A stretch of DNA of 64,000 nucleotides, from NCBI RefSeq assembly GCF_000179915.2, contig NC_014963.1, forward strand, positions 310,001 through 374,000, written 5' to 3'. Below are positions 41,521-44,476 of the stretch, piece by piece. A program made the position numbers and the translations under genes. The notes under the pieces were generated by a model. It saw only the letters and a program-made list of their open reading frames with translations. It searched no databases and had not been told where the DNA came from. The DNA is from Terriglobus saanensis SP1PR4 (lineage in GTDB: Bacteria > Acidobacteriota > Terriglobia > Terriglobales > Acidobacteriaceae). How positions within the stretch are numbered: the stretch's first letter is position 1; the number at the start of each line of letters is the position of its first letter.

Positions 41521-41656
41521 GTCATCCGCAGCGTAGCGAAGGGATCTGCTTTTATCAGGAACGTCGCCCCAAAGTGAACTTACTCGGAGATCAGGTTTGT
41601 GCGCTCCGCGCGACCCCACCCTTTCGCGATAAAGCCGCGAAAGAATGGGGCACGGG
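41521..41656. repeat. Dispersed palindromic repeat, copy 5 (A2 + A1)
   Basis: GTCATCCGCAGCGTAGCG with AAGGGATCTGC (A2), a longer centre of about 40 bases, then GTGCGCTCCGCGCGACCCCA and GCGAAAGAATGGGGCACGGG (A1). The GTGCCCC end lies two bases from the stop of the ThuA-like gene (41659). Confidence 0.85.
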
Positions 41657-41658
41657 AC

Positions 41659-42522
41659 CTACTGCTTCTTCATATTTCCAAGCCAGAGCAGCCCATCTTC
41701 GAAGATGTGGTTCTGGGTCTCGTTGGTGAAGATCTTGTCGCCGTGGCCCATATTGACGTAGAGCATCCTGTACTTCGTGTTGGTCCAGACGACGGGCATG
41801 TCTCCGGAGAGGAGACGGTCTTTGAAGCCGAGCGGATAGTTGGCGGGATCGAAGCTGATGAGCACCTTGACGTTCGCGTTCGCGCGGGCGCTGGGCTTCC
41901 AGACGTACCACTCGTTCGAAGGCGCGAGGAATGTGGCAGGGAGGCGGTGGGTCACGGGATGATCTCGGACATCGACGATGAGCTGCGCGGGGAGCGGTGG
42001 CCAGTTGTTGGCGTTGAAGACCGCGCCTCCGAAGAAATCCACGAACCAGCGCCACTTGGTATCCCTGTCGTTGTAGCCCGAAACATGCGATCCCAGCCAC
42101 CCGCCGCCATGGTTCATATAGCTTTCAAAGGCCGTGCGCTGCGCGTCGGTGTGGGGCTGGTCGTTGAGCCAGAGAACGACATCGACGTGAGCGAGGGTCT
42201 CGGGGTTGAGTTCCTTCCAGTCCGTGGTCGCACGGAAGTCGAAGTGATCGCGGGCGGCCGCTTCGGTGTAGAAGGCGATGGCCTGCCGAGCGAAATCGGA
42301 GTGATCGGTTTCGCCGCCGGTGGTCCAGAAGGCTAAGGCGTGGAAGGTGGGTTGTTGGGCGGTGGCTGTGACGGTAAAGAGAGCGAGCACAAGGGCGACA
42401 AACCAAAGCCCACGTATTGCCCGATCGCTCTTCGAGCGAAAGATGCGCTTGGCGCATGCCCCCATTCTTTCGCGATAAGGCTGCGAAAGAATGGGGCACG
42501 AGTTCAAGTTGTTCTTCCTCAT
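41659..42522 (-). CDS. Exported ThuA-domain protein; N-terminus contains a repeat element
   Basis: From ATG 42522, which overlaps the TGA of the upstream ThuA gene (ATGA), the product has 287 residues. Residues about 8-34 are encoded by a palindromic repeat (42421-42499). The hydrophobic core GLWFVALVLALFTVTATAQ follows, then a ThuA domain (TTGGETDHSDFARQAI, GGGWLGSHVSGYNDRD, PVVWTNTKYRMLYVNMGHG). ThuA domains are glutamine-amidotransferase-like folds of unclear sugar-related function. ATG 42465, inside the repeat, is the other possible start; no start lies between repeat and core. Confidence 0.75.
   Translation of the reverse strand: MRKNNLNSCPILSQPYRERMGACAKRIFRSKSDRAIRGLWFVALVLALFTVTATAQQPTFHALAFWTTGGETDHSDFARQAIAFYTEAAARDHFDFRATTDWKELNPETLAHVDVVLWLNDQPHTDAQRTAFESYMNHGGGWLGSHVSGYNDRDTKWRWFVDFFGGAVFNANNWPPLPAQLIVDVRDHPVTHRLPATFLAPSNEWYVWKPSARANANVKVLISFDPANYPLGFKDRLLSGDMPVVWTNTKYRMLYVNMGHGDKIFTNETQNHIFEDGLLWLGNMKKQ
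42421..42499. repeat. Dispersed palindromic repeat, copy 6 (A1 + C), inside a coding region
   Basis: On the minus strand GTGCCCCATTCTTTCGCAG and CGAAAGAATGGGG form the A1 hairpin. Then come two small hairpins (ATGCGCCAAGCGCAT and TCGCTCGAAGAGCGA), module C, also seen at 60141-60175. The element lies in the 5' part of the ThuA-like gene and 20 bases after the stop of the neighbouring ThuA gene. Confidence 0.8.
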
Positions 42523-43289
42523 TTGCCTGCTGCCCAGTAGATCGCGTTGTGAAAGAGCTTTTCTACATTGGGGTTCTGCAGCAGCTCGCCATGATGGCCA
42601 AACTGGAAATAGACGTTGCGGGCCTTGTAGTGCGTATTGGTCCAGATGACGGGATGGTCGCCCATCTTGACGGTGCGTGCGGGCGTGTAGCTGTCTTCGT
42701 CTACGTTGGCGAGTACATGCACGCTGGGACGCGGGGACTGGTCGTAGGTGTACCACTCATCGTTTTCTACCACGAAGGATTTAGGCAGGCCGCGCATCAC
42801 GGGATGGGTGGCGTCTTCGATGCGGACCGTGCCGGTGGCGAAGTCCGGAATGTAGCTCTTGAAGACGATGTTGCCCATGAACTCGTGGAAGAACGGCGAC
42901 ATCTCAAAGCCATCGAACTTGCCAAGAAGTGAGGCGTGATGGAAGCCGATCCAGCCGATCGTTCCTTGCTCCATTGTCTTTTTGAAGGCTGCTTCCGCAG
43001 TGGGAGTCCAGCGATAGGGTGGATAGTTGAGCTGGATGAAGACCTTGTGCTCAGCGAGGTAAGCATCGTTGATGGGATCGGTTGTGCGGATGTAGTCGAC
43101 GGCGAAACCCTCCGCGGCGCCGGTCTTTTCAAGCCATGCGATGGCGGCATCCACGAAGCCCTGGTGCAGGCCCTGTCCGGGTTCGGCTAGCGCAATCACG
43201 CGAAACTTGATCGGCTTCGTTTGTGCCGGAAGGCTGAAGGCGGTGACGAGTGCGAGGAGCGCAAGGGTACTTCGGAGCAGCTTCGACAT
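42519..43289 (-). CDS. Exported ThuA-domain protein
   Basis: I start at ATG 43289, with AGGA seven bases upstream and a good signal peptide (STLALLALVTAFSLPAQ). The 256-residue product has the ThuA fold: ALAEPGQGLHQGFVDAAIAWL, TIGWIGFHHASLLGKFDG, PVMRGLPKSFVVENDEWYTY and HPVIWTNTHYKARNVYFQFGHH. It is a paralog of the next gene. The two overlap by four bases and are probably co-expressed. The role is unknown; ThuA relatives often occur with sugar-uptake or dehydrogenase genes. Confidence 0.82.
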   Translation of the reverse strand: MSKLLRSTLALLALVTAFSLPAQTKPIKFRVIALAEPGQGLHQGFVDAAIAWLEKTGAAEGFAVDYIRTTDPINDAYLAEHKVFIQLNYPPYRWTPTAEAAFKKTMEQGTIGWIGFHHASLLGKFDGFEMSPFFHEFMGNIVFKSYIPDFATGTVRIEDATHPVMRGLPKSFVVENDEWYTYDQSPRPSVHVLANVDEDSYTPARTVKMGDHPVIWTNTHYKARNVYFQFGHHGELLQNPNVEKLFHNAIYWAAGK

Positions 43290-43402
43290 CGTGGAATTCC
43301 TCTGATGAGGGGAATGGTAAGGGAAGAGATGCTTCATGGCAAAAGAGAAGTATGGCAATTGTCCTGTCTTCATAAGGCGGAGCAGTGATAGCGTGGGTGT
43401 CC

Positions 43403-44476
43403 ATGAGAGATCGTTCGATTTGGATTCTGGTGGGGATGGGCTTGTTCCTGTGTGCTGCGCGAGGGCAGGAATCGGGCATGCAGTCAGGAACATTGCTTGC
43501 GGACCACGGCATCGCCTTTAACCGGGCAACAGGCAAGGTCTACGCCGTCGACCAGGAGCACGGCGCGGTGATGGTGATCGATGGCAGAACTGGCGTTGCG
43601 AAGCGTGTGACGGTCGGCACACATCCCGTCTGTGTAGCGGTCAATGCCGCGACTGGGCGAGTGTATGTGGCCAACGGCGGCAACGGCAACGTGAGCGTGC
43701 TGGATGGAGCGACCGACCAGGTGGTTGCCACGGTAAAGACCGACCGGCGTCCGTATTACGTGGGCGTCAACGAGGCGACGAACAAGGCGTTCGTGTCGAA
43801 CACCTTCAGCAGTGTGATGACGATCATCGACGGAGCGACGAACACCTCCAGGCAGCTTCCTGTGGGGTCGGGCGATGCGCTGATTGTCGATGGGAAGTCG
43901 GACAAGATCTATCTACTGGGTTATGAAGACCCGAACCTGCGCGTCATCGACGGCACCACCGGAGCGACAACACGGGAGCCCGTGGGCAGCGTACACGCCT
44001 GGGCTCCTGCAATCGATTCGGAGCGGCGTGTGTTGTATGTCACGCGATCTGGCACAGCTGACATTCTGGCGCTGGGCATGGACACGCACGAACACAAGGT
44101 GATCAAGGTGGGTAATATTCCGAGTGCCGTAGCGGTCGATGCGGCGACGCATCGTGTCTACGTGGCCAATTACGCGGACGACACCGTGAGCGTGATCGAC
44201 GGTGGACGCGTGATCGCAACGTTGAAGGTCGGCAGAAGTCCGCAGAGTATAGCGGTAGACGCGAAGCGGAGGCGCATCTATGTGGCGAACTTCCACGGCG
44301 ATAGTGTGACGGTGATCGATAGCGCGAACAATCGCGTGCTGGCGACGAAGCCTGCCGGAAGGAATCCATACGCGGTGGTGGTGGATGAGGCTGCGGGTAC
44401 GGTCTTTGTGGGGAACATGACGCGGCCCTCGTCCGAGGGCGCATCGGTGTTTACAAAGGTGGAATTGGGGCGTTGA
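43403..44476 (+). CDS. Exported YncE-like beta-propeller protein
   Basis: From ATG 43403 the product has a signal peptide (SIWILVGMGLFLCAARGQ) and a series of about seven blade repeats with signatures such as KVYAVDQEHGAVMVIDG, RVYVANGGNGNVSVLDG and RVYVANYADDTVSVIDG. These match the YVTN/YncE repeat family. It may bind DNA, peptide or surface ligands; no ligand can be assigned. GTG 43385 is an alternative start. Its 3' end overlaps the convergent GGDEF-EAL gene by 26 bases. Confidence 0.82.
   Translation: MRDRSIWILVGMGLFLCAARGQESGMQSGTLLADHGIAFNRATGKVYAVDQEHGAVMVIDGRTGVAKRVTVGTHPVCVAVNAATGRVYVANGGNGNVSVLDGATDQVVATVKTDRRPYYVGVNEATNKAFVSNTFSSVMTIIDGATNTSRQLPVGSGDALIVDGKSDKIYLLGYEDPNLRVIDGTTGATTREPVGSVHAWAPAIDSERRVLYVTRSGTADILALGMDTHEHKVIKVGNIPSAVAVDAATHRVYVANYADDTVSVIDGGRVIATLKVGRSPQSIAVDAKRRRIYVANFHGDSVTVIDSANNRVLATKPAGRNPYAVVVDEAAGTVFVGNMTRPSSEGASVFTKVELGR

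Follow-up and report, generated by a model that had tools for sequence, protein, structure and literature searches.

Has a mobile palindromic repeat become part of the signal peptide of a ThuA-family protein in the soil bacterium Terriglobus saanensis SP1PR4, and from which codon would such a repeat be translated? The question arises from two ThuA-family genes arranged head to tail on the minus strand of the window, i.e. the whole 64,000-nucleotide stretch analysed here, which corresponds to positions 310001-374000 of the single 5,095,226-bp contig of this strain. The features of the locus, in window coordinates, are the following.

42519-43493, minus strand: gene 1, the adjacent ThuA paralog (Pfam ThuA, E 1.3e-41)
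42519-42522, minus strand: ATGA overlap of the gene 2 start with the gene 1 stop, the putative ancestral start (start/stop overlap in 11/11 syntenic orthologs)
41659-42522, minus strand: gene 2, ThuA-family protein with a predicted signal peptide, 287 aa counted from the ATG at 42522; the signal-peptide region holds the repeat
42500-42522, minus strand: pre-repeat segment MRKNNLN, the first codons of which align to MMKNN of the close relative
42460-42499, minus strand: REP family 1 part, GTG plus a 14-bp hairpin with a 9-nt loop (89 full hairpins genome-wide, control 0)
42463-42465, minus strand: in-frame ATG, codon 20, within the repeat, an alternative start (read directly)
42423-42459, minus strand: tail of another composite repeat, which folds as a pair of small hairpins and is fused to the family 1 hairpin (29 copies at ≤3 mismatches, control 0)
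42415-42417, minus strand: ATA, codon 36, after the repeat, a near-cognate start candidate (ATA makes up 41 of 15,130 codons)
42355-42411, minus strand: hydrophobic core and likely cleavage region GLWFVALVLALFTVTATAQ (best 12-residue hydropathy 2.65)
41614-41653, minus strand: second REP family 1 copy, directly after the gene 2 stop, the usual REP position near a 3' end

The repeat of gene 2 and its family

Gene 2 matches Pfam ThuA over residues 63-280 (E 7.6e-38), and its frame has the highest coding score of the six (30.1 vs. 10.9). Codons 1-8 are ATG AGG AAG AAC AAC TTG AAC TCG, the ATG at 42522 overlapping the TGA of gene 1; this overlap, and the passage of the frame through a dispersed palindromic repeat into the hydrophobic core, had both been noticed in the original prediction and were read directly here. 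From the ATGA start, the frame crosses the repeat at 42423-42499, leaves it into GLWFVALVLALFTVTATAQQ and enters the core GLWFVALVLALFTVTATAQ. The repeat starts with GTG at 42499 and ends at GATC, at 42423, and its stem is a perfect 14 nt, with arms at 42460-42473 and 42483-42496. An extent of 42421-42499 had been proposed earlier, of which the 42499 end stands, whereas the other end moves to 42423, a boundary taken from the other copies of the tail (20 of the 29 were read); the repeat thus measures 77 nt and not 79. It encodes 26 residues of gene 2, seven of them basic and two acidic. By arithmetic only, the removal of exactly 77 or 79 nt breaks the frame, so that the allele preceding an insertion is not readable from the sequence.

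Folded as single-stranded DNA, positions 42421-42499 gave a z of -7.05. No Rfam family matched in 42300-42700 at E up to 0.1, which rules out a known structured RNA, and a chance palindrome is ruled out by the number of copies in the genome and by the reversed control. The hairpin CCCCnnnCTTTCGC-loop-GCGAAAGnnnGGGG is present in 89 full copies in the genome vs. none for the reversed control pattern, and single-arm matches amount to 161/163 in the genome vs. 14/16 in the control. With the same pattern, at least one full hairpin was found in 9 of the 19 genus genomes, T. saanensis included. According to a home-made gene model, 112 of 116 places with REP copies lie outside predicted genes, with a median distance of 18 nt to the nearest 3' end (96 places). 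A Y1_Tnp match at genome positions 399402-399680 is located between inverted REP copies (37 nt, 97%), the arrangement by which a REP and its RAYT are recognised. The repeat belongs to the RAYT-associated REPs. As for the GTAG or CGTC tag, neither was found at the stem base; by eye, the listed copies mostly have GTG directly before CCCC.

Two side observations concern the transposase genes. In the REP-flanked Y1 gene (L144:1314-1909), the C-terminal YIHHNP motif and the HUH motif are not in the same frame. A second Y1 transposase gene (L145:1259-1924), flanked by perfect inverted repeats of 35 nt that belong to another REP family, has its HVH and YLHRNPV motifs in one frame.

Of the 20 tail copies read (out of 29), 18 are immediately preceded by a different hairpin, which comes in two types, and one lacks it, the remaining one being the window copy with its family 1 hairpin. 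The window element is therefore a chimera of the family 1 hairpin and the tail of another repeat, and this comparison rules out an element built from one REP family only. Most simply, the chimera would have arisen through internal deletion of a cluster whose units adjoin elsewhere in the genome.

An open frame through the repeat is by itself weak evidence of coding use, because 298 of 342 sense frames of the REP (87%) are open, as are 265 of 342 antisense frames (114 places).

Concerning the transcript, an mRNA hairpin can form 22 nt after the gene 1 stop, and with the REP at 41614-41653 after the gene 2 stop, both ThuA genes are closely followed by a REP. Intercistronic REPs are known to affect the transcript of the upstream gene, and by analogy an added effect of the hairpin on the gene 1 transcript is possible.

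Comparison with orthologs and a close relative

Two sets of genomes were searched for orthologs, T. saanensis itself being counted in both: of 200 from the family, 26 had a match, and of 19 from the genus, three. Twenty-nine loci were examined, of which 15, without gene 1 in the fetched flank, were left out; the other 14 comprise the window, two records of the close relative (L061 and L141, identical at the site) and the 11 orthologs counted. In all 11, the start codon of gene 2, as inferred from codon positions and not from annotation, overlaps the stop of gene 1, in ten of them as ATGA or GTGA; the eleventh has TTG at this position and an ATG three bases on. Several orthologs have further in-frame starts, 19 nt before or 8-53 nt after the gene 1 stop. 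Measured from the gene 1 stop to a reference codon close to the cleavage site, the distance is 12.7 to 24.7 codons in the orthologs, vs. 50.7 in T. saanensis. With three mismatches allowed, no REP arm was found in the stop-to-reference stretch of the 11 orthologs; one single-arm match (≤3 mismatches) was found in L037, in the end of gene 1 and before the gene 2 start. The original prediction had named orthologs with the same flanks but no repeat as confirmation of an insertion; an overlap start, a short signal-peptide region and no REP arm were found in 11 of 11 cases.

Since the overlap start is found in 11/11 orthologs, together with shorter distances and no REP arm, the original start was most likely the ATGA at 42522, and the 26-38 additional codons most likely represent the insertion. 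The comparison thus supports an insertion of the repeat into the n-region of the predicted gene 2 signal peptide, and this insertion is well supported at the DNA level, use of the repeat at the protein level being putative.

The metagenome-assembled genome nzgw68 is the only close relative found, with 92% protein identity. It keeps the ATGA and the KNN codons, followed at the same place by the family 1 tail and a third repeat, and has ATGs of its own just before the core. In this gene (L061:1310-1470), a 1-nt frame offset occurs in the signal region, before the mature part, on a contig labelled with a coverage of 2.4. Different content at the same place would most simply be explained by a single ancestral insertion that each lineage trimmed in its own way, two separate insertions at one site in T. 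saanensis and nzgw68 being the alternative.

Between the two species, the mature part of gene 2 has a dN of 0.048, a dS of 0.66 and a dN/dS of 0.073, a ratio that averages the whole divergence and in which a very recent decay would stay invisible. Averaged over the time since the split of the two species, the gene 2 protein is strongly constrained.

Candidate parallel cases in the genome

The genome was screened for frames that run from the hairpin into a hydrophobic stretch with no start codon in between, at 114 places taken as sense REP copies, of which at least one (994431) looks spurious. Eight frames passed the hydropathy filter, and only the window gene and the genes at L148 and L011 were best of six by coding score; three of eight filtered frames rule out a wide genome pattern. 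In a screen on start distance, the first start was at least 25 codons away in 44 of 109 open frames. Four frames were marked best, namely L011, L148, 1590105 minus and 3881676 plus, the last two being rejected as parallels, as each has a Met at the judged start of the protein. The same filter applied to other nearby repeats (42, 28, 24 and 72 places) gave three lines, i.e. the window gene, L148 and one unlikely-looking frame.

From their predicted frames, an alginate-lyase-like gene (L148) and a BNR-like gene (L011) thus look alike in having putative REP-encoded n-regions. The former (L148:1251-2552; genome 307408-308709, just outside the window; PF05426, E 1.6e-39) reads MTKKRC-APFFCGFIAKEWG-LLALSVAVTAIAAP, with the core directly after the REP and no ATA there, and with the next start 58 codons past the hairpin. 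Seven more distant orthologs were compared: in six of them an in-frame ATG occurs shortly upstream of the core, L254 has a longer N-terminus, and none of the seven has a REP arm. In the nzgw68 counterpart, the contig begins inside the REP, in the same frame, and 20 codons separate the loop from the mature part in both species, so that the in-frame REP of this gene seems to be common to both. The dN/dS of this gene vs. nzgw68 is 0.062. The match to the nzgw68 gene is spread over two frames, with the break near residue 250, and neither this gene nor ThuA gene 2 is intact in that draft genome. As a separate observation, the nearest upstream ATG of the T. saanensis alginate-lyase-like gene is supplied by another dispersed repeat.

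The BNR-like gene (L011:3-1613; genome 176811-178421) codes for a large protein with Pfam BNR scores below the cut-off. It reads MAKEWG-RAERTNIFRWRFATALLILTTLLPAQS, the next start lying 56 codons past the hairpin; its nearest in-frame ATG before the core is in the REP loop, and an ATA is found just before the core. The N-termini of its orthologs are too diverged to fix an ancestral start, and no match was found in nzgw68.

The orientation of the repeat relative to the gene is identical in the window gene, L148 and L011. According to PMC3570800, 43.1% of the T. saanensis genes are annotated with signal peptides, and the prediction of export for all three genes is not significant (0.43 cubed, about 0.08) and suggestive only.

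Elsewhere in the genome (L207:1-1782; genome 4284499-4286280), a REP at 4285976 is seemingly in frame just after a signal peptide. This frame, without a Pfam match, reads GTG-KKLYPTLALCTTLLIPQLSVSQS, with the REP at the start of the mature protein.

Translation of the repeat and its meaning

The N-terminus of gene 2 fits a Sec signal peptide as judged from sequence features only, with a basic n-region (net +8), a hydrophobic core (hydropathy 2.65) and an end, TATAQQ, with small residues before a putative cleavage site. The standard starts in the stretch up to the core are the ATG of codon 1, the TTG of codon 6 and the ATG of codon 20, and all three place repeat residues in the precursor. That no start codon lies between the repeat and the core, as predicted earlier, was borne out for ATG, GTG and TTG, the next one being the GTG of codon 45, within the core; this rules out that a normal start downstream of the repeat was missed in annotation. 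The further claim that repeat residues are included under any start choice stands for ATG, GTG and TTG, but fails for the ATA of codon 36, from which an ordinary signal peptide without repeat residues would result.

Concerning the Shine-Dalgarno match, the ancestral ATG has a value of -3.7, unremarkable vs. a median of -3.3 for 300 random places, and its n-region of 38 residues is long. The TTG of codon 6 has a better match (-5.6), and the repeat is included from this start too. We infer that the ancestral coupled ATG is most likely the start of gene 2.

It is probable, in our judgement, that a RAYT-type REP cluster was inserted in the gene 2 signal peptide and is now translated, from the ancestral start, as n-region. 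The cluster would have entered gene 2 of the translationally coupled ThuA pair just after the first signal-peptide codons, most simply in an ancestor shared with nzgw68, and would then have been trimmed differently per lineage. In T. saanensis, the trimmed chimeric element would lie in frame, giving from the ATGA start a precursor with about 26 repeat-encoded residues, which, being net positive, would help to make up a long n-region in front of the hydrophobic core. Everything encoded by the repeat would be cut off by signal peptidase, and the mature protein would stay the same. A signal-peptide n-region needs little beyond positive charge. Since REP frames are usually open, an insertion of frame-fitting length would be read through, and it would be tolerated because the n-region is flexible as long as it is positive and because the repeat part is removed by cleavage.

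Initiation inside the repeat, at the ATG of codon 20 in the 3' arm, is rather unlikely. The repeat would then supply both the start and a 19-residue n-region, MGACAKRIFRSKSDRAIRG, with fewer repeat residues in the precursor; such an n-region, with a charge of +5, would be more ordinary, the in-frame ATG is present, and L011, too, has the closest in-frame ATG upstream of its core within a REP. This ATG, however, sits in the 14-bp stem and has a poor Shine-Dalgarno match (-1.2), and the ancestral coupled start is intact.

We give a lower probability, and regard as quite unlikely, that the repeat is an untranslated leader, with initiation at the ATA of codon 36 yielding MRGLWFVALVLALFTVTATAQ and the upstream open frame being incidental. 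ATA is a rare codon (41 of 15,130, counted in the long ORFs of the window) found at the expected start position both here and in L011, and the home-made gene model puts the window copy outside the gene, its coding signal running through the REP in L148 and not in the window gene or L011. Against an ATA start, AUA is a very poor start codon in known bacteria, the orthologs have start codons at the gene 1 overlap, and the alginate-lyase-like gene has its core directly after the REP and no ATA. PMC3733652, which reports REPs within ORFs of many genomes, some of them N-terminal, warns that many of the N-terminal ones may be extragenic, which favours the ATA start; unlike this expectation, the ortholog comparison made here supports coding use.

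That gene 2 is decaying, having lost efficient initiation or export through the insertion, is very improbable, given a dN/dS of 0.073 over a dS of 0.66 and an intact 287-codon frame, even though the nzgw68 copy has a 1-nt frame offset in its signal region and no standard start codon follows the repeat in T. saanensis.

With respect to known systems, translation from the ancestral start would have its closest likeness in the palindromic mobile repeats found in frame within Rickettsia protein-coding genes (PMC10969869, PMC3733652). This likeness, already drawn in the original prediction, holds for the way of working and not for the element, a REP whose copies enclose a Y1 transposase gene. The reading frame of gene 2 does appear to carry its repeat in frame in a conserved gene under selection, as in Rickettsia palindromic elements; these are nevertheless set apart by their description as elements of about 150 bp in unrelated metabolic genes, vs. 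a 77-nt REP chimera in the signal peptide of an acidobacterium. The high copy number of a short hairpin, its location mostly near 3' ends and the inverted copies around a Y1 gene resemble the REP/RAYT systems of PMC3733652, the main text of which mentions T. saanensis once, for a transposase; unlike the REP superfamilies described there, the present family has no GTAG or CGTC tag at the stem base. A precedent for a mobile element in a signal peptide is the Yersinia RU-2 in YPO1552, a MITE of 168 bp located at the beginning of a putative protein of 144 aa (PMC2759123); unlike RU-2, the REP would here lengthen the n-region, the hydrophobic core not being derived from the repeat. Among the matches listed in our literature search, no title or abstract opening describes the case reported here.

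As a whole, these observations suggest that a mobile repeat can be taken up into an export tag at little cost. A broader proposal, which we offer tentatively and hold to be possible but somewhat doubtful, is that n-regions are a recurrent safe landing site, where REPs enter coding sequence and even donate starts, several exported proteins of one bacterium having tags encoded by mobile elements, some of them common to more than one species; such landings would be safe because almost any basic stop-free sequence is tolerated and then cut off after export. In the REP literature, N-terminal REPs are treated with caution as possible artefacts of annotation; the ortholog starts bring independent evidence to bear on this point, and with three such genes in a cultured strain the coding use of REPs can be tested directly. 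If true, the finding would point to a site at which selfish hairpin repeats can invade bacterial coding sequence cheaply, and to a way in which they remodel export signals.
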